Below, one piece after another: positions 36,314-44,081 of a stretch of DNA of 64,000 nt. The notes below the pieces were generated by a model. It ran no database searches. It had not been told where the DNA came from and saw only the letters and a program-made list of their open reading frames with translations. Numbering within the stretch: the stretch's first letter is position 1; each line of letters starts with the position of its first letter. The stretch is from an uncultured Litoreibacter sp. Its GTDB lineage: Bacteria > Pseudomonadota > Alphaproteobacteria > Rhodobacterales > Rhodobacteraceae. A program made the position numbers and the translations under genes. Location: contig CANNGL010000001.1 of NCBI GenBank assembly GCA_947504205.1, positions 1 through 64,000 of the forward strand, read 5' to 3'.

Positions 36314-36397
36314 GGGCGACAGGCCGCAAGGTGTGGCAGGGGACTGTAACTCCCTCGCGGAGACGCACGCCTGGTTCGATTCCAGGGTCGCCCACCA
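36314..36397 (+). tRNA. tRNA-Tyr (anticodon GTA)
   Basis: An 84-nt class II tRNA: acceptor GGGCGAC/GTCGCCC, short D-arm, anticodon stem GGGGA/TCCCT with loop CTGTAAC (anticodon GTA, 36346-36348), variable arm GCG-GAGA-CGC, T-arm CCTGGTTCGATTCCAGG, discriminator A and CCA. The long variable arm is normal for bacterial tRNA-Tyr. It reads opposite to the genes on both sides. Confidence 0.93.
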
Positions 36398-36534: not shown

Positions 36535-38319
36535 TCAAAGAACCATTGGTTCATGCACATAAGTGCCGGGGGCTGGACAAATTTGCGGGAACTCTTTGCA
36601 ACCCGGTGCCTCGGGCGCGGGTCTTGCACCGTCGGAATACTGTGCAAGCCAGGTCGACCAGTCTTCCCACCAGGTGCCAGCCCGTCGATCAGCCTCTTTG
36701 AGCCATTGATCAGGGTTTTGAGCATGAGCTTCATTCACAAAATACTCGCAATTGGCGAGGTTGGGTGGACGCAGGATGCTTTGCACATGCCCACTGGTCG
36801 AGAGAACAAACCGGTTATTGCCGCCGAACGCGTCAACCGCACGGTAAATTCCGCGCCAAGGCATCAAATAGTCTTCCAACCCTCCAACAAAGTAAGTCGG
36901 GACATCTACCTTGTCGTAATCAATGGGCTTGCCGAAGAGCGATTGGCGACCCGGGTGGCGAAAAACATCGTTCAGGAAGATATTGATGAAGTCTGAATGC
37001 AGCTTTGCAGGCACGCGGGTGGGATCATTGTCCCAATAGAGCACATCGAGCGGCGGCGGCTGACGTCCGAGAATGTTGTTATTGACCCAAAAATTCCAGA
37101 CCAGATCATCGGATCTGAGCCATACGAAAAGATGCGCAAGGTCGAGCCCATCCATCGTGCCTTCTTCCCTCGATATCCGGCGGGCCAGTTCAAGGTTTTC
37201 GTCCGTTGTAAACGCCTCCAGAATAGAGCCATTGCCGGGATAGAGCGCTGTGACAAGCAGCGAATGGCTGGCAATCAGCGGAGAGCGTTGCTGGCTTAGA
37301 TGCCCAAGCAACGACATCGCAGTCAGCCCACCGGCGCAGGCGGATATGAGGCTGACCTTATCGGTCTGGGTTGTCACGCGTATGGCCTCGACCGCTTCGA
37401 GGATCGCCGCGACGTATGTCTCGACACCCCAGTCTGCTGCATCAGGTCCAGGGTTTCTCCAACTGAGTGTGAAGACCTGATACCCTCGCTTGACCAGATA
37501 TCCGAGCACGCTGTTTTGAGGCTTCAGATCGAAGGCATAGTATTTGTTGATTTGCGGAGGGATCAGCAGGATCGGGCGCTTATGAACCCTATCGGTCTGA
37601 GCTGCATATTGGATCAGTTCCAGTTGCGTGTTACGAAAGATTACAGCGCCGGGCGTGATTGCGAGAGTCTCACCCAGGCGGTAAGCGCCGGGTTTGATTT
37701 GACGGGGCATCCCGCGATTGTATTGCAGATCCAGCGCAAAATTCTTCAGACCCTGAACCGCCGACCGCCCTCCGCTGGAATCGGCGCGTTTGATGGCAGA
37801 GGGATGTAACGGCAGGTTGGTTGGTGAAAAAGCGGCCTTCATCTGGTGGACCAGAAATTCGATCCGCTTGCGATCGTCGTCATCGATATCCTGCGCGTCG
37901 AGCCAGTCCTGCACATGCATGTTCCAAGCAAGATAGAGCTGCATCAGTCCGCGCAAAACGGGGCTTTCGCGCCAGAGCGGGTCGCGGAACCGTCGGTCTT
38001 TCGGACTGGGCTGGAGATCAACCGCCTCGGATTGCCGAAGAATATCAATTGCCTGCGCGGCGAAAGCCGAGAAGTGTTCCGACAAGAGGTCGGGCTTTTC
38101 CAGAGCCAACGAGATCAGATGCGCGAAGGTTTCGGTAAATCCTTTTCCGGTCGCTGCACTTGAGTGTGACGCCTTGAGTTTCGGGTCTGAAAGGACATCG
38201 GATGCGATCCGCATCAACCGCTCCGCCTTGCCGAGCGGATCGCGGCCACCGCTTAGCAGCGCCTCTATGATGTCGGAGAGGTCGCGGTCCTGCGGTTCGC
38301 GCTTGGGGTTTCCGTCCAT
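36535..38319 (-). CDS. Polyhydroxyalkanoate synthase (PhaC-like, divergent)
   Basis: A 594-residue PHA synthase-like enzyme, which would polymerise hydroxyacyl-CoA. RFRDPLWRESPVLRGLMQLYL at about residue 110 is the conserved N-terminal block. The catalytic Cys lies in SACAGG at about residue 328 (class I enzymes usually have GYCxGG, class II GACAGG), the Asp in GGLEDYLMPW at about 483 and the His in TSGHVQSILRPP at about 511, so the triad is complete. The N-terminus is short and Asp/Arg-rich. It is the last gene of a minus-strand operon with four unrecognised beta-rich proteins, not with the usual phaR, phasin or depolymerase genes. Confidence 0.9.
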   Translation of the reverse strand: MDGNPKREPQDRDLSDIIEALLSGGRDPLGKAERLMRIASDVLSDPKLKASHSSAATGKGFTETFAHLISLALEKPDLLSEHFSAFAAQAIDILRQSEAVDLQPSPKDRRFRDPLWRESPVLRGLMQLYLAWNMHVQDWLDAQDIDDDDRKRIEFLVHQMKAAFSPTNLPLHPSAIKRADSSGGRSAVQGLKNFALDLQYNRGMPRQIKPGAYRLGETLAITPGAVIFRNTQLELIQYAAQTDRVHKRPILLIPPQINKYYAFDLKPQNSVLGYLVKRGYQVFTLSWRNPGPDAADWGVETYVAAILEAVEAIRVTTQTDKVSLISACAGGLTAMSLLGHLSQQRSPLIASHSLLVTALYPGNGSILEAFTTDENLELARRISREEGTMDGLDLAHLFVWLRSDDLVWNFWVNNNILGRQPPPLDVLYWDNDPTRVPAKLHSDFINIFLNDVFRHPGRQSLFGKPIDYDKVDVPTYFVGGLEDYLMPWRGIYRAVDAFGGNNRFVLSTSGHVQSILRPPNLANCEYFVNEAHAQNPDQWLKEADRRAGTWWEDWSTWLAQYSDGARPAPEAPGCKEFPQICPAPGTYVHEPMVL

Positions 38320-38339
38320 AGCGGGCGCAGTGCCGCCGG

Positions 38340-38801
38340 CTACTTGCTGGGGAGCTTGCGAACGACGAAATCGGTGACGCGGAAGTCCATCTCGGGGAAC
38401 ATCACCGTTCCGGAATAATCCTGACCCGCCACCGCTTTACGTCCGATCTGGGCCAGAATACGGACAACCACCTCATCCGTTCCATCATCAAAGGACAGAC
38501 GTTCCGGCTCGACAGTCACTTTTGTGTCCGAGAAATCACCTGCAACAGCCAGTGTCACTGTGCCTTTCATCGTGCCGGGGTTGGTAATTGCGAAAGCCGC
38601 GTTTGCGGTTTCTCCTGCCTTTCCTGCGAGCAGAAGCGGAGGGCGTCGCACTTCCTCGGGTTCCGGATCTGTCCGTCCATCGGTCAATGCTGACGAAAAC
38701 GCCCGGACATATTCGCGCCCGAGGTTCAGCAGTTCGGCCGAGTACTTCAGATTGACCGCTGAGGTGTTGCGGATTGTATCGCTCATTTTCTTGTCGGCCA
38801 T
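38340..38801 (-). CDS. Helix plus Ig-like protein next to PhaC, unknown function
   Basis: A 153-residue protein from ATG 38801 (AGAGGGTGAC upstream). An N-terminal amphipathic helix (LKYSAELLNLGREYVRAFSS, about residues 18-37) is followed by a proline-rich hinge and a beta-sandwich-like domain with alternating strands (AGETANAAFAITNPGTMKGT, then VTVEPERLSFDDGTDEVVVR). The strand pattern resembles CARDB/NEW-type Ig-like domains. No signal peptide. The N-terminal helix closely parallels that of the adjacent 220-residue protein. It lies 20 bases before phaC-like and 1 base after its neighbour. A granule-surface protein is a guess from context. Confidence 0.8.
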   Translation of the reverse strand: MADKKMSDTIRNTSAVNLKYSAELLNLGREYVRAFSSALTDGRTDPEPEEVRRPPLLLAGKAGETANAAFAITNPGTMKGTVTLAVAGDFSDTKVTVEPERLSFDDGTDEVVVRILAQIGRKAVAGQDYSGTVMFPEMDFRVTDFVVRKLPSK

Positions 38802-38802
38802 G

Positions 38803-39465
38803 TCACCCTCTTCCGCTGCTTGCAATCTCAGTCGGGCAGGGGCGCATGACGTGGAAATGGTCATACCAGTGCAACTCGTAGTCCGGCGCATCTTCCACAC
38901 AGACACAGTGACAGCAGGGCTTTTTGGCTTTTTCGTCCCGGCAGATGATCCAGCGGAGATAGTGCTCGGCGCAGCCACGCACCCAGATCAGGAGATCTAG
39001 ATCATCACATTCGCAGCAGCTTTCGCGCCGGTCGGGGTCGCGTTCCTGTTTGGGCACGGTCACCCTTACCGACACTGTGCGGCGTTCCTTCGGGCCAAGA
39101 TTGAAGGACCGGTCTTTCTGGTCGATCTGCACGGCGCCGGCATCTGGACCGGCAGGCTTGATCTCATAGCTGTGGGGCCGGAAGTCCTCATTGATCACAT
39201 CTATGCAGACTTCGCCTTCGGCACCGGGCGCGAGATTGCATTTAACCTCGCCCAGAGAGCGGGGCATCCAGCATGGGTCGGGAATATCGCAGCAACTTGA
39301 GCCTTGTGGCAGGCTCATGCCCCTTGCCCCATCGGCCAAAATATTGCCGCCTGCGACAAAGGCCTTAAGAAGTTCTTTGCCGAGGCCCAACTGGGCCGCG
39401 ATCAGATCGCCTAGCGCGGAATCTACGCCGCTCATATCCATTTCAGGTTTACATTTTGAGGTCAT
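38803..39465 (-). CDS. Cysteine-rich helix plus Ig-like protein, unknown function
   Basis: A 220-residue protein with 16 cysteines, unusually many for a protein without a signal peptide. Residues about 14-37 form an amphipathic helix (GDLIAAQLGLGKELLKAFVA) like that of the downstream 153-residue protein. An Ig-like domain follows (GAEGEVCIDVINEDFRPHSY, LGPKERRTVSVRVTVP). The Cys cluster SCCECDD, then GC, IIC and PCCHCVC suggest metal binding or disulfides. The C-terminus (YELHWYDHFHVMRPC) is rich in His and Tyr. Its start overlaps the upstream gene by 4 bases (ATGA). I do not recognise the family. Confidence 0.8.
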   Translation of the reverse strand: MTSKCKPEMDMSGVDSALGDLIAAQLGLGKELLKAFVAGGNILADGARGMSLPQGSSCCDIPDPCWMPRSLGEVKCNLAPGAEGEVCIDVINEDFRPHSYEIKPAGPDAGAVQIDQKDRSFNLGPKERRTVSVRVTVPKQERDPDRRESCCECDDLDLLIWVRGCAEHYLRWIICRDEKAKKPCCHCVCVEDAPDYELHWYDHFHVMRPCPTEIASSGRG

Positions 39466-40178
39466 CGGACAGCTCCGTTAATGACGGACACGGTAATAGG
39501 AAATTCAGCAAAATCGGTGCTGGCCACGCCGTGATAGCGGTGGCCGGTCTTGAGGGGTTGGGTCAGGTTTAAGGTGAACTCTGCCGAGAATGATGTCCTG
39601 GGTGCGTGGATCCCATATCCACGAGAGACCGCCAGCTTGATAATGCCACTATGCGAGGCGCGGAGCCTGTCATGGAACGTCGCAAAGAAATCATCGACGG
39701 TCTTGCGCGGCTTCGCGTAGCTGGCAGCAAATGCCGATTCAAGGCCGTCATCGTCAAACAAAGCGATTGGAAATGCGCGGGGCAGGCGGAGTTCAGTGTT
39801 CCCGGTATTTGCAATCGCAAGCGTTGCCTTGGCGCGCGTTCCAAGCTTACCCACAAAATCCAGGCCGCCAACCAGTACCGAGGCTCCGGTCTCGGGCAAA
39901 ACCCGTGCCAACACTTGATAGGCAGATTTCCCGGCTACCAGTTTGCCCTTGTAGTCGCCTGCCGGTGTTTCAGGGGCGAGGCGCAGTGACAGAGCGGCCG
40001 CGCGGCGCCCGCCATTCCGTACGCGTAGGGCCTGCCGTCCGGGCGGCAGCAGTTTCGTTAACGGACCACTGAGTTCGGGCACATCCTCAATCAGTGGAAT
40101 ATCACCTACGGCAACCAAGCGTCTTGGAGGGCCGACGAACTCGATCGTTTTGACGGGTGTTGTGGCGCGTGCAGCCAT
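39462..40178 (-). CDS. Beta-rich protein in the PhaC operon, unknown function
   Basis: A 238-residue protein with no signal peptide. It appears to hold two Ig-like domains in tandem: the first around RQALRVRNGGRRAAALSLRL and PAGDYKGKLVAGKSAYQVLA, the second around RAKATLAIANTGNTELRLP, then a C-terminal strand-rich segment (HRYHGVASTDFAEFPITVSV). The pattern resembles the NEW/COG1470 class of Ig-like repeats. It is coupled to the 220-residue gene by a 4-base overlap and follows the first gene by 9 bases. Confidence 0.78.
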   Translation of the reverse strand: MAARATTPVKTIEFVGPPRRLVAVGDIPLIEDVPELSGPLTKLLPPGRQALRVRNGGRRAAALSLRLAPETPAGDYKGKLVAGKSAYQVLARVLPETGASVLVGGLDFVGKLGTRAKATLAIANTGNTELRLPRAFPIALFDDDGLESAFAASYAKPRKTVDDFFATFHDRLRASHSGIIKLAVSRGYGIHAPRTSFSAEFTLNLTQPLKTGHRYHGVASTDFAEFPITVSVINGAVR

Positions 40179-40187
40179 GATCCCGCC

Positions 40188-40568
40188 CTACCCAACCGGG
40201 ACCGGCTCTAGCGGCTGAGGCCTCGGCGGTCGTTGCGGCTTGGGCTCGCACGGATAGGCGACATAGGGCTCAGTGATGAACTGACCTTGCCCGCAGAGCG
40301 AAACGCAGGCCAGTTCCCGACCCAGCAGATTGAAGCCCACTTTATAGTTCAGCGGAAGATGTCCGCGAATTGAGGGGATTTCCTTGATCCGAATTGAGAG
40401 GTCAATCGGTTTGATCTCAATTGGTTTCAATTCGATCGGTGCAAGCTCTTTCACCCTGACCGTAAAATCGCTTGGAATGGTGATGTTGTAGCTGGTCGGA
40501 ATGTCGATATCGAGACCACCGTCAACATCGACGCCAAAGGTAAACTTGGAGGGAATTTTAACGCTCAT
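40188..40568 (-). CDS. First gene of the PhaC operon, beta-repeat protein
   Basis: A 126-residue protein from ATG 40568, chosen because a promoter -10 lies at 40611-40616 and AGGGA precedes the ATG; a longer frame to 40619 would start inside the promoter. It has no signal peptide. A regular pattern of short strands (FTVRVKELAPIELKPIEIKP, then IDLSIRIKEIPSI) gives an open beta-sheet or beta-helix impression. GFNLLGRELACVSLCGQGQF carries two Cys, and the C-terminus is Pro/Arg-rich (PQRPPRPQPLEP). I have seen similar small proteins next to PHA synthase-like genes but know no function. Confidence 0.75.
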   Translation of the reverse strand: MSVKIPSKFTFGVDVDGGLDIDIPTSYNITIPSDFTVRVKELAPIELKPIEIKPIDLSIRIKEIPSIRGHLPLNYKVGFNLLGRELACVSLCGQGQFITEPYVAYPCEPKPQRPPRPQPLEPVPVG

Positions 40569-40610
40569 AGCCCAATCCCTGAAAACAAATGAATGTAAAT
40601 AATGGTCTAT

Positions 40611-40639
40611 ATCATACATTAATACCGCCGTTTTTTGAA
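40611..40639 (-). promoter_or_regulatory. Likely promoter of the PhaC-like operon
   Basis: On the minus strand TTCAAA (40639-40634), 17 bases, then TATGAT (40616-40611). The region is AT-rich and lies 43-71 bases before the start codon at 40568. The rest of 40640-40848 holds no gene that I can support. Confidence 0.5.
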
Positions 40640-40848
40640 GGTCTTTGCGGGGCTGTGGCAGCTTTCCGCTGAACGTAGGGGGTCAATGGCAGTTGATTTG
40701 ACATGTCTGGGGTGAGGAAAAAGTGGCCAAAGGAAAGTGCGTTAGAGGTTGTCGTTGTGGTGATTTCGCACCCCTGAAACTCTGCCCGGGCAGGTGTTCT
40801 GAGGCGTATGGCGAACAGCTCGGTTTCGGCGAGCGTTTGTCGTCGTTG

Positions 40849-41718
40849 TCACATCTTCTGTGCTTCGGAACGCGAGTTAAGCGTCACCCAGAGTGAGGCG
40901 GCCACCACCAATGCGGCCCCGGGTGCGAAGCTGGCGCCGGGCACCTCGCCGAAGACTGCGTAGCCAACAGTTACTGATAGAACGAGGCTCATGTAGCTTA
41001 GCACGGAGAGATACCCCGCTGTCCCATGGAAATGAGCCCTCAGAAAGCAAAACTGTGCGGCTTGAGCAAAGCACCCGATCAGGAAGAGGGCAACGAAATG
41101 CTCCGGCGGCACCGGCTCCCAATACAAGGCAGCAATGGGCGCGCTCAGGATTGTCAGTCCGACCGTATAGAAGGTCATCATGACAATGGGCGGCGCGGCT
41201 CGCAGTGCGCGCGTTGCCACGACCACGGCTGATGCTGAAACCACCACAAGGACCATTGCGGCAAGTCCCCAACTCCAAGGAACCGCGCTGGGATTGACCG
41301 CTATGATGGTCCCAGTCAAAGCGATGGCTGCCGCAAGCCATCCGCGTAGGCTGATTTTCTCCCGCAAGATGACCGCAACCATCAACATGGTGATGATTGG
41401 TCGTGTGAAGCTGATGGCTGTGAAGATCGCCAAGGGCAGGCGGGCAATGGCGAAGAAGCTTGCGACCAGCGTCACTGCTGAAAGCGTGACACGCATTATT
41501 TGCAGCGAAAGTTGAGGAACGCGTCGAAAGTCTTCGGCATTTTTAAGGATCAGGGGTGAAATCACCAGAAATCCGATCAGGGCGCGAAAGAAAACCACCT
41601 GTGCTGCCGGATAATCCGCCCCCAGCCATTTGACCAATGAAAGCGACCAGATGTTCAGCGACAAATCTGCCAAAAGCCACGCGCCACCTTTCAGATTATC
41701 GCGCGGGGCGTTTGTCAT
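40849..41718 (-). CDS. EamA/DMT-family membrane transporter
   Basis: A 289-residue protein with about ten transmembrane helices in two EamA repeats (SLNIWSLSLVKWLGADYPAA, AVVFFRALIGFLVISPLIL, and in the second half APPIVMMTFYTVGLTILSA). Members export small metabolites or amino acids. Its start codon overlaps the PIG-L gene by 4 bases, so it is the last gene of a unit with the deacetylase and the ROK regulator. The substrate is unknown; a sugar or amino-sugar product is possible. Confidence 0.9.
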   Translation of the reverse strand: MTNAPRDNLKGGAWLLADLSLNIWSLSLVKWLGADYPAAQVVFFRALIGFLVISPLILKNAEDFRRVPQLSLQIMRVTLSAVTLVASFFAIARLPLAIFTAISFTRPIITMLMVAVILREKISLRGWLAAAIALTGTIIAVNPSAVPWSWGLAAMVLVVVSASAVVVATRALRAAPPIVMMTFYTVGLTILSAPIAALYWEPVPPEHFVALFLIGCFAQAAQFCFLRAHFHGTAGYLSVLSYMSLVLSVTVGYAVFGEVPGASFAPGAALVVAASLWVTLNSRSEAQKM

Positions 41719-44081
41719 ACCCGTTTGGCAATGAAATTTGCCATCAGGCGGAAAGCCCCCGGCACAAGGTTTTCCATCTGGTGATGCAAGATCAGCGAGG
41801 TGTGAATGTGACGCCCCTTGCCGACATCGGCCACGAGGAGCGAGCCCTGATGCGCATCTTCGCCTGAATCAGCCATTTCGATCAGCGGCGTGTAGGCCGG
41901 GTCCCAGCTTTTGGCAAAGTATAGACCTCGCTCCTTGACCCAGTCGGCCCAATCATCTGGGCCAATACGGTTCGGCGTCATCAGAATGGGGTGATCAGTC
42001 AGGTGGCGGACTTCGGCGTTTTCGTTTGTCACGCGCCAACGCAGCGACGGTTGGCCGATTTCAAGCCGGTAGGGCGGGGTCGTGTCCGGCTTCCAGTTAT
42101 CCCAAGGGCGGTGATAGAGTGTCAGTAGAGTGCCGCCAGCCTTGGTCCAAGCGTGAAGGCGCGGCATCAGCCCAGCAAGCCCGTCGCGGAAACGCATCGC
42201 AAGGATGCCGATGATGATCGTGTCAACCTGTGCCAAGGCCTCGTCGCTGGCCAAATCAGCGTCGGAGAGGTCTGTCACGTCGGCGCCCAGAGAGGCGAGC
42301 CAAAGGTTCACCCGATCATTGCCAGCGCCGACATAGCCAACCTTTACGTCTGGAATATCGGCCTCAAGCGCAAGAACGCGAAGGACGGCGGGTTGCGACA
42401 GAGCTGTAGGGGCGATGTGGTCATAGGAAATGCGTTGAACGCTCATTGCCGGCTTGCCGTTTAGTTTCACCGGTATGTCGTAGCGTCCGGCGGTCACATC
42501 CTTTGGAGCTTTGAGCGAGACGACGTCAGCAGCAACCTTGGATTGCCAGCCCTCAGGCAAGTCCAAGCAAGGTGCCGCATCTACTGGATACAGGTTGCCA
42601 ATTCGGCTTTCGCAGCTCCGTGTTTCGGTGGCCAGGTTGATCAGAGCTGCGTCGGGCGCAATCTGCGCCCGGACAGAGGGAAGCACGACGGGTGGAGTTT
42701 CGAACGGCAGGCGTATCGATACCCGCTCGCCCGCATGGGTGATCTCCACAATGCAGGCCGGTGCCTGAGCATCGGCAGGATCGTAGATGTCTCGGTATGG
42801 GTCTGTAGGCGTGGCATTTTCATTCAGGACGAGCTGCGCGTCACGCGCTGACCATCCATTGGGCAAATCAAAACTAACATCCAGTTCGTTTGCCGTGCCT
42901 TTCGTGGCCTCAAGCGTCAGCGTCGTCGATTGACCGGGTGCGAGGAAGGTTTCAGCCGTCCGACAGCACACATCTATGCCCAAGGCGAGGCGTATCACAT
43001 GGCCCAGTTGAACCTCTTTTGCGTCCAAGCGGTGGGCCACATCCTGTTTTAGTGCATCCGGGCAACCGGCGCGTGCAGAGCGTATGGCGGTCAGCGCGTG
43101 GATTGCGGAGCTGGCAACACGATCAAAGTCAGGGAAGGCGGCGATTGTTGCGTCAATGGCGCGCTGCGCTTCGTCAAGTGCGTCGGACATACCGTCGGCG
43201 CCGGGCAGAATTGCGAGATCGCCGACATTCGCTGGCAGCCCAGCGGTCAACGTACTGTCCGGGCCGGGAAGGTGGCTCTCGGCCAAATGCAAAGGCCAGT
43301 CTCGCGTCTGGTCAGAGGCAATCCAACGGCCCATGCCCTGTGTCCGGTGGTATGCCCGCGACTGCTGGCCGATGCGCTCCCATGACCAGCCGCTGATTGG
43401 ATCGCCACCCTGTCCGTTGATGGTCAGCGTGGGCGGCGGTGGCGGAAGGTCATCATCATAGGCCTGACCTGCGCCAGACCACGCTGGCAGATACATTTTC
43501 TTCACCTGCCAGGGCGGCAGGTTTGACGGAAATGCCGGATCGGCTGCTGCTTTCATTACGTCATGGGTTGATTGTGTGATTGCCCGATGGTGCCCGTGCT
43601 GTCCCGGCACGTCGAGAAATGTGGGACAGATGAGGTCGGGTTTTTCGGTGCGAACAATTTCGACGAAGCGTGCCAACGTGCGGTCCTCACCCCATCGACC
43701 GAGTGTCTCGTCTCCGCTTTTTGAGAACCCGAAATCGGTGACCGGATCATCTGGCGTTTCGGAATGCCAATACATCCGCATCCGCAGGATATCGCAGGCC
43801 TTTTCCATTTCGCGCGTGCGCAATGCGCCCAATGCGGCGCCTGCTTCGGTGCCGATGTCGTTTTGCCCGCCTTCGCCGCGCGTTGAACAGGCGTAAGATA
43901 GATTGATGCCATCGCGGAACGCCAGTGCAGCCAGCATGCCGGAGATTTCATCGTCAGGATGGGCACCGGTTTGCATAAAGCGCATGACGGACTTGAGCGA
44001 CCGAAGAGCCCACCATAACTCTGTGATGCGCGGTCGGGCGCGGTCGGCTTCGATACGTCTCTGTTGGGTCGTAGACATCAA
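41715..44081 (-). CDS. PIG-L family deacetylase with large C-terminal extension
   Basis: A 788-residue protein. The N-terminal domain is a PIG-L/LmbE deacetylase: the zinc motif GAHPDDEISGML (about residue 38), STRGEGGQNDIG, and the third ligand in GQHGHHRAI (about residue 160). These enzymes remove acetyl from N-acetyl-glucosamine-type groups. The remaining about 550 residues are an Ig-like or beta-rich part (SLAPGQSTTLTLEA type strands) and a C-terminal flavodoxin/GATase-like domain (TIIIGILAMRFRDG, TKAGGTLLTLYHRP). No signal peptide is seen. It lies in an operon with a ROK regulator, divergent from a sugar ABC operon, so the substrate is likely an acetylated amino sugar or glycoconjugate. 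Confidence 0.9.
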   Translation of the reverse strand: MMSTTQQRRIEADRARPRITELWWALRSLKSVMRFMQTGAHPDDEISGMLAALAFRDGINLSYACSTRGEGGQNDIGTEAGAALGALRTREMEKACDILRMRMYWHSETPDDPVTDFGFSKSGDETLGRWGEDRTLARFVEIVRTEKPDLICPTFLDVPGQHGHHRAITQSTHDVMKAAADPAFPSNLPPWQVKKMYLPAWSGAGQAYDDDLPPPPPTLTINGQGGDPISGWSWERIGQQSRAYHRTQGMGRWIASDQTRDWPLHLAESHLPGPDSTLTAGLPANVGDLAILPGADGMSDALDEAQRAIDATIAAFPDFDRVASSAIHALTAIRSARAGCPDALKQDVAHRLDAKEVQLGHVIRLALGIDVCCRTAETFLAPGQSTTLTLEATKGTANELDVSFDLPNGWSARDAQLVLNENATPTDPYRDIYDPADAQAPACIVEITHAGERVSIRLPFETPPVVLPSVRAQIAPDAALINLATETRSCESRIGNLYPVDAAPCLDLPEGWQSKVAADVVSLKAPKDVTAGRYDIPVKLNGKPAMSVQRISYDHIAPTALSQPAVLRVLALEADIPDVKVGYVGAGNDRVNLWLASLGADVTDLSDADLASDEALAQVDTIIIGILAMRFRDGLAGLMPRLHAWTKAGGTLLTLYHRPWDNWKPDTTPPYRLEIGQPSLRWRVTNENAEVRHLTDHPILMTPNRIGPDDWADWVKERGLYFAKSWDPAYTPLIEMADSGEDAHQGSLLVADVGKGRHIHTSLILHHQMENLVPGAFRLMANFIAKRV

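Follow-up and report, generated by a model that had tools for sequence, protein, structure and literature searches.

A four-protein block beside a divergent PHA synthase and other enzymes as a possible coat of hydrophobic inclusions

The first 64,000 nucleotides of contig CANNGL010000001.1 from an uncultured Litoreibacter sp. (assembly GCA_947504205.1; this whole stretch is called the window below) carry an operon in which a polyhydroxyalkanoate (PHA) synthase gene, phaC, follows four genes of unfamiliar proteins, here called open reading frames ORF1 to ORF4. The locus raises the question of whether these four proteins serve the synthase or have a role of their own. A preliminary description of the sequence had proposed a granule-surface or shell module that works with the synthase. 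We observed that ORF1-4 form an ordered block that stays together while the enzyme encoded after it changes. The idea of a surface module found partial support, and its synthase-specific version did not. On the sequence evidence ORF1-4 would be a coat or scaffold of hydrophobic inclusions with an exchangeable enzyme, a reading that we regard as evenly poised between right and wrong. The features of the operon are as follows.

40611..40639, minus strand: promoter-like site TTCAAA-17-TATGAT, unproven, the number of such sites equalling chance expectation
40188..40568, minus strand: ORF1, 126 amino acids (aa), alternating hydrophobic/polar beta repeats, then a conserved core (KEIPSIRGHLPLNY...CGQGQFITEPY)
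39462..40178, minus strand: ORF2, 238 aa, a new family
38803..39465, minus strand: ORF3, 220 aa, predicted N-terminal helix and MSP/PapD-like immunoglobulin (Ig) domain, with Cys/His motifs at both domain ends
38340..38801, minus strand: ORF4, 153 aa, N-terminal helix region and possible Ig-like domain
36535..38319, minus strand: PhaC, 594 aa, divergent PHA synthase by sequence, triad Cys328-Asp483-His511

The block and its partner enzymes

A scan of named genomes with the PhaC query gave three relatives, in an alphaproteobacterial metagenome-assembled genome (MAG; locus L006, 77%), an Acetobacteraceae MAG (L007, 51%) and a Nevskia MAG (L008, 51%). The order ORF1-2-3-4-PhaC is identical in L006 and L007, and the L008 contig, which begins inside ORF2, has the remainder of the operon. 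All three have ORF3 and ORF4 directly upstream of PhaC; as they were found via PhaC, they are not countable for the frequency of ORF1-4 beside PhaC, for which the set found via ORF3 is used. In genome G967 (L027), which belongs to another class of the phylum, all five genes stand in the same order, and the operon PhaC is the only PhaC found in the genome. The description of the four proteins and the synthase as one module was thus upheld by their common order in L006, L007 and L027, and in L008 as far as the contig reaches.

Used as a single-sequence query, ORF3 found only its own genome among 61 genomes (20 of the same genus). In wider samples ORF3 was found in 2/398 genomes of the phylum, 1/385 of the class and 3/273 of the order, in 5/61 genomes of the family of G285 and 5/274 of its class (which we infer to be gammaproteobacterial; one of these matches is spurious), and in 1/54, 1/2 and 1/4 genomes of the orders of G967, G879 and G877, respectively. 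The profile searches covered the window's own phylum, and the counts overlap between genome samples and include the centre genomes, so they are not additive. Ten genomes besides the window's own were found via ORF3. Two matches were rejected as spurious: that of G212 to ORF2 (E 5.2e-4) has one TGA and three TAG codons inside, and that of G900 to ORF3 (E 8.4e-4), the one from the class of G285, falls within a 544-aa protein, and the 9 kb taken contain no further match to ORF1-4. Phage, viral and plasmid origins were also rejected: the L027 ORF3 query found no relative in phages, none of the 41 viral-contig stretches matching the ORF3 pattern was confirmed, and the window ORF3 and L021 ORF2 queries found no relative in plasmids.

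The enzyme encoded after the block in these ten genomes is PhaC in one, a polyprenyl synthetase in three, and a redox/hydrolase set in five; one has no clear enzyme. ORF1-2-3 stand in order in 13 of the 14 loci studied, the fourteenth being L008, cut off at its contig end, and ORF4 was found in 11. Nine of the 14 loci have the block without an adjacent PhaC, always with ORF1-3 and in six cases with ORF4. The genomes of two block carriers, G879 and G877 (97% and 100% complete), gave no PhaC match at E 0.001. The rule that PhaC always stands beside ORF1-4 is rejected by these loci, and the claim that the module belongs to the synthase was not borne out. The preliminary description would have taken scattering of the four proteins away from PhaC as a sign of error; PhaC is indeed absent beside these nine loci, but the ordered block stays together and it is the enzyme that changes.

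ORF1-4 were absent within about 6 kb of 6/6 more distant plasmid-borne PhaCs (37-44% identity; H1, H2, H3, H9, H10 and H11), a non-random sample hand-picked among 20 listed of 143 plasmid records. The neighbours of the four annotated ones are an alpha/beta hydrolase (one) or a MaoC dehydratase and phaZ (three); the other two carry no annotation.

In G879 (L028) the polyprenyl synthetase lies 0.67 kb downstream of ORF4, separated from it by a 134-aa gene, and in G1351 and G1365 (L048 and L049) it follows a methyltransferase gene; the enzyme was identified by Pfam on L028 and L049. The NCBIfam model of family 2 encapsulin cargo scores best on the L028 enzyme (79.5 bits) and second-best on that of L049 (152 bits), both far below its cut-off of 450. 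Behind ORF1-4, L028:5422-8486 encodes a Lys-rich 134-aa protein, the polyprenyl synthetase and, over cut-off, a protein of the geranylgeranyl reductase family; by eye the 134-aa protein resembles PhaF, and it matches no phasin model. The prenyl clusters of L048 and L049 belong to the window's own family. After ORF4 (L048:10192-14772 and L049:10393-14466) they encode the methyltransferase, the polyprenyl synthetase, a 192-195-aa protein that in L048 is weakly ORF3-like (E 3.7e-4), and 187-aa and 332-aa proteins with no Pfam match; L048 has an additional 175-aa protein.

All five redox loci (L011, L018, L019, L020 and L021, from G285, G837, G818, G819 and G783, all of one bacterial family) have the same run after the block: alpha/beta hydrolase, GMC oxidoreductase, a 149-aa protein, a 460-aa protein and a DyP-like peroxidase, identified by Pfam on one representative each. 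The peroxidase passes the cut-off of DyP_N, and its C-terminal model stays below. After DyP there is a catalase-like gene in four loci and a lipase-like gene in three, the other stretches taken being too short to tell. This run possibly does lipid oxidation. An ordinary PhaC (32-37%) is encoded elsewhere in four of these genomes (G285, G837, G819 and G783), and G818 has only a short weak match. Part of the protein of about 460 aa has relatives in 50 plasmid records, including Rhizobium and Sulfitobacter, some of them lying within genes whose annotation is cytochrome P450 or DyP-type peroxidase. In G877 (L029), the stretch L029:11604-15710 runs divergently from ORF1-4; its first product, of 836 aa, combines a Lys-rich N-terminus with DUF362, and it is followed by an epimerase-family protein and one of 176 aa that matches no Pfam family.

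We compared the blocks of different partners by profile. Profiles built from the window and L006-L008 alone match ORF1-4 in L027, L028, L029, L048 and L049, the ORF4 profile at 2e-52 to 2e-7. As a match of the redox loci to their own profiles is given by construction, the evidence there is hhalign, which aligned the PhaC-type and redox-type profiles at E 2.5e-12 for ORF1, 3.4e-16 for ORF2 and 2.6e-16 for ORF3, versus 0.0035 or worse for the 12 crossed pairings. The ORF4s of L028 and L029 are matched by both ORF4 profiles, bridging the PhaC and redox types.

The ORF3 tree sorts the loci by partner at a minimum of 2 changes, and 0/200 shuffles were as low (the partnerless locus not counted). Support is 94/95 for its PhaC group and 100/100 for its redox group; the prenyl loci do not resolve as one clade. 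Similarly, a branch of the concatenated ORF1-3 tree (96/95) separates the five PhaC loci from all others. In that tree the two prenyl loci of the same family group with each other (100/100), and the placement of L028 is weak (53.3/63). As the trees are unrooted, no direction of enzyme exchange can be read from them. In the PhaC tree the Acetobacteraceae locus pairs with that of Nevskia (99/97), against taxonomy, and in the ORF3 tree G967 groups with the window and L006 (94/95), again against taxonomy, with L007 and L008 not resolved there. Because both trees conflict with taxonomy, the PhaC cassette appears to move between bacterial classes, subject to the reservation that L008, a MAG contig of 5 kb, may be misbinned.

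The operon and its synthase

The five minus-strand genes are packed with gaps of 9, -4, 1 and 20 bases, as first described. The start of ORF1 is most likely the ATG at 40568 (126 aa, MSVKIPS...) and that at 40619 (143 aa) is unlikely, because the M[ST]VKIPS start is common to L006, L007 and L027 and because the minus-strand promoter-like site at 40639-40611 would overlap the longer form. Upstream of ORF1, where the preliminary description placed a single AT-rich promoter, positions 40569-40719 have a G+C content (GC) of 45%, compared to 56.7% for the whole window. A scan of both strands gave 2 promoter-like sites, one of them on the minus strand, against 2.0 expected, and the operon promoter is unproven for that reason. 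A foreign base composition was rejected, the operon having 56.5% GC. All five genes look like they are under purifying selection, with ratios of nonsynonymous to synonymous change (dN/dS) of 0.06-0.13 in the comparison of the window with L006, the nearest relative; these values are rough, because synonymous sites are almost saturated.

The last gene of the operon is, by its sequence, a true but divergent PHA synthase. Among Pfam domains, PF07167 (PhaC_N) scores 177.9 bits against a cut-off of 23.7 and Abhydrolase_1 38.7 against 25.8, and five PhaC sequences from the PDB match at E 7.4e-100 or better. The complete Cys-Asp-His triad claimed earlier is present: Cys328, Asp483 and His511 align with those of solved synthases in two alignments, and the triad is kept in 5/5 operon PhaCs. 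We infer that the enzyme makes polyester by the usual Cys-Asp-His chemistry. It is closest to class II PHA synthases, whose NCBIfam model TIGR01839 is the best-scoring subfamily and matches near full-length, but at 532.3 bits it stays under the cut-off of 855.4; the class I model TIGR01838 gives 443.5 bits (cut-off 622.65). The operon PhaCs also differ from class II in having Ser two residues before the catalytic Cys (5/5; Gly in 10/11 comparison PhaCs) and Tyr (4) or Asn (1) after the catalytic Asp (His in 11/11), and they form a clade of their own with a support of 100/100 in a tree against 11 other PhaCs.

By Pfam, contig C4 of the window's genome encodes a second PhaC, of the ordinary kind, whose neighbourhood reads as a standard phaZ-phaC-phaP-phaR locus, the names phaZ, phaP and phaR being assigned by our own reading. 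No homologue of the genome's own PhaP, PhaR or PhaZ was found at E 1e-3 among the 361 window ORFs of at least 60 aa. The reported lack of a phasin, PhaR or depolymerase gene holds for the window, but the genome appears to have them.

On the plus strand, a tRNA-Tyr gene (36314-36397) ends 137 bases from the phaC 3' end, convergent with the operon. The 788-aa PIG-L family protein encoded at 41715-44081 far exceeds the 129-position domain in length and has a sub-threshold NPCBM-associated match.

Features of ORF1 to ORF4

The four proteins had been described as having no recognisable names. This stands for ORF1, ORF2 and ORF4, none of which reaches the cut-off of a Pfam or NCBIfam family (for ORF1 and ORF2 nothing matches even at E 1, and ORF4 has only sub-threshold Ig-type Pfam matches). 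ORF3 barely passed one generic Ig-like Pfam model, FixG_C (26.3 bits against a cut-off of 25.6). ORF1-4 gave no PHROGs or PADLOC match at E 0.1, and a defence role was rejected on this ground. No signal-peptide-like or membrane-span-like hydrophobic segment occurs in the window ORF1-4 (highest 19-residue hydropathy 0.84-1.14), in agreement with the earlier statement that none has a signal peptide.

The hydrophobic/polar alternation of ORF1 is 0.62, compared to 0.25+-0.06 in shuffles, and it exceeds all 1000 own shuffles in 13/13 members; the C-terminal core is constant across members. This strong alternation fits an amphipathic beta structure and agrees with the short repeated beta-strands first described.

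The AlphaFold2 (AF2) model of ORF3 has a helix at residues 14-41 at low confidence (predicted local distance difference test, pLDDT, about 40) and a beta-sandwich, for which most blocks of residues 71-190 reach pLDDT 85-94. Among the best 50 rows of a Foldseek search with this model were HYDIN, VAP-A MSP, PapD and Caf1M domains (E 3.5e-5 to 1e-3; template-modelling score, TM, up to 0.59 on the target; identity 7-18%), and a profile search of solved structures with ORF3 gave HYDIN first (E 5.3e-5). ORF3 is, as modelled, a helix followed by an MSP/PapD-like Ig domain. Its modelled fold is like that of the MSP/ASH/PapD-like domains of these proteins, but at only 7-18% identity in the listed rows function is not transferable. 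The Ig domain is preceded by the motif SCCDIPDPCWMP and followed by HWYDHF...C, both conserved for the most part in an alignment of 12 members; that they make a metal site is a guess.

The layout of ORF4 resembles that of ORF3, and the two probably share a domain, because the ORF4 profile also matches ORF3 of L029 (2e-6). The Ig-like domains originally assigned to ORF2 (two), ORF3 and ORF4 are supported for ORF3 by Pfam and by the model, and for ORF4 there are only the sub-threshold matches; the window ORF2 has no Pfam match, and the NPCBM_assoc match of a relative (E 0.019) is below cut-off. The N-terminal hydrophobic moment of ORF3 and ORF4 is above that of 81-99% of shuffles (8 sequences). 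ORF4 ends Lys/Arg-rich in L027, L028, L048 and L049 (4/11 members; 30-45% of the last 20 residues), a feature noticed post hoc, with six other ORF4 members inspected by eye.

A coat, and the alternatives to it

The partner enzymes mostly share a hydrophobic product or substrate, PhaC and polyprenyl synthetase by family and the redox/hydrolase set by guess. The simplest reading is a hydrophobic phase with a coat or scaffold that can take up different enzymes. The make-up of the proteins, namely the modelled helix and Ig domain of ORF3, the amphipathic beta structure of ORF1 and the Lys-rich ORF4 tails in some relatives, would suit a granule surface. ORF1-4 would then provide the structure of a cytoplasmic inclusion, with PhaC as the enzyme filling it. 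ORF3 and ORF4 may sit on the nascent granule via their N-terminal helices, with outward Ig domains that would pack with each other and with ORF2 as a lattice, while ORF1 may lie on the oily surface by one face of its alternating strands. PhaF tethers PHA granules to the nucleoid, and the Lys-rich ORF4 tails of the relatives might hold the inclusion there likewise. Other lineages would have kept the coat and changed the enzyme, to polyprenyl synthetase or to the GMC/DyP/hydrolase set.

Several points weigh against such an inclusion coat. An inclusion as the site of action of the polyprenyl or redox enzymes is an assumption; the redox cases, all from one family, amount to few independent events, and in G877 no clear enzyme accompanies the block. 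The PhaC-type and redox-type ORF4s are weakly alike (E 6.5e-4, probability 28%), ORF4 is missing in 3/5 redox loci, and the redox ORF4 profile was built from the two loci that it matches. No phasin model of Pfam or NCBIfam matches ORF1-4, and no phasin Pfam model matches seven ORF3/ORF4 relatives or the L028 134-aa protein. The N-terminal amphipathicity of ORF3 and ORF4 is only modest (0.7-19% of shuffles reach it), and the window's own ORF4 lacks a Lys-rich tail (20% Lys+Arg in the last 20 residues). Of the structure models, that of ORF1 is unusable (pLDDT 36), and the five of ORF3 disagree in confidence (mean pLDDT 64.7, 63.9, 52.8, 39.8 and 34.5), two being near the best.

ORF1-4 could instead be obligate subunits or activators that assemble the synthase, like PhaE of class III and PhaR of class IV, and no granule coat. 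Such a role is consistent with the position of ORF3 and ORF4 directly upstream of PhaC in the three PhaC-found relatives, and with the grouping of the PhaC loci in the PhaC, ORF3 and ORF1-3 trees alike. We consider it unlikely, as the nine loci with no adjacent PhaC and the two genomes with no PhaC match argue against it, and no class III/IV subunit model of Pfam or NCBIfam matches ORF1-4.

A closed protein compartment enclosing the enzyme, encapsulin-like by function and no polymer-surface coat, is improbable to a similar degree. Enzyme exchange in a fixed structural block is the behaviour of a compartment, and encapsulin cargo types include DyP-type peroxidase and polyprenyl transferase, which the partners here recall and with which the name of the sub-cut-off NCBIfam model agrees. 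However, no capsid or microcompartment model of Pfam or NCBIfam matches ORF1-4 by sequence, ORF3 models as MSP/PapD-like, and a growing granule would be ill-suited to a fixed shell.

We likewise doubt that ORF1-4 form a membrane- or enzyme-bound scaffold that passes hydrophobic intermediates between enzymes with no inclusion body. The MSP domains of VAP proteins act as adaptors, and the block of the redox loci is part of a row with as many as seven additional genes; the PhaC loci, on the other hand, have one enzyme only, with an insoluble polymer as the expected product, and the four window proteins have no membrane segment. An ordinary second polyhydroxybutyrate (PHB) synthase with unrelated neighbours already runs counter to the data and is scarcely credible: second PHA synthases do occur in Rhodobacteraceae, such as the two class I copies of Yangia (PMC5259889), but order and tight spacing are kept here in L006, L007 and L027, the operon PhaCs form their own clade, and ORF1-4 occur in 0/6 of the chosen other PhaC neighbourhoods.

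Returning to the coat or scaffold with an exchangeable enzyme, we tentatively extend it, as a possibility that we hold to be somewhat doubtful, to a product-independent inclusion kit of which ORF1-4 would be the first members: an Ig/beta coat unrelated to phasins, encapsulins and microcompartments, transferred whole from one bacterial class to another and carrying as its enzyme a PHA synthase, a polyprenyl synthetase or lipid-oxidising enzymes. If such a kit exists, its polyprenyl and redox versions would be undescribed inclusions of polyisoprenoid or oxidised lipid. A beta/Ig block of constant order combined with changing enzymes would mean that coat and content evolve apart; the ORF1 core and the ORF3 Cys/His motifs would make a marker for finding as yet unrecognised inclusions in genomes, and the proteins would be new parts for making polymer beads. 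A limited search of the open-access PubMed Central literature found no description of the module, which does not imply its absence from print.

Among known systems, the PHA granule surface layer (the phasins PhaP, PhaF and PhaI, and PhaM) is like ORF1-4 in its synthase neighbourhood, the lack of a signal peptide, the predicted helical N-termini and, in some relatives, the Lys-rich tails; helical structure and Lys-rich tails are features of PhaF. PHA granule coats are known mainly as helical phasins, whereas ORF1-4 match no phasin model, consist of Ig/MSP and amphipathic beta proteins, and occur in two genomes with no PhaC match. With PhaE and PhaR the block shares the encoding of extra proteins beside a synthase, but it is not restricted to PhaC. 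Encapsulins also combine one structural part with several enzyme partners; they consist of one capsid-fold protein, compared to the four proteins here. By function we place the block as a granule coat, a known kind, of new composition, and it would become a kind of its own if the polymer-independent kit were confirmed.

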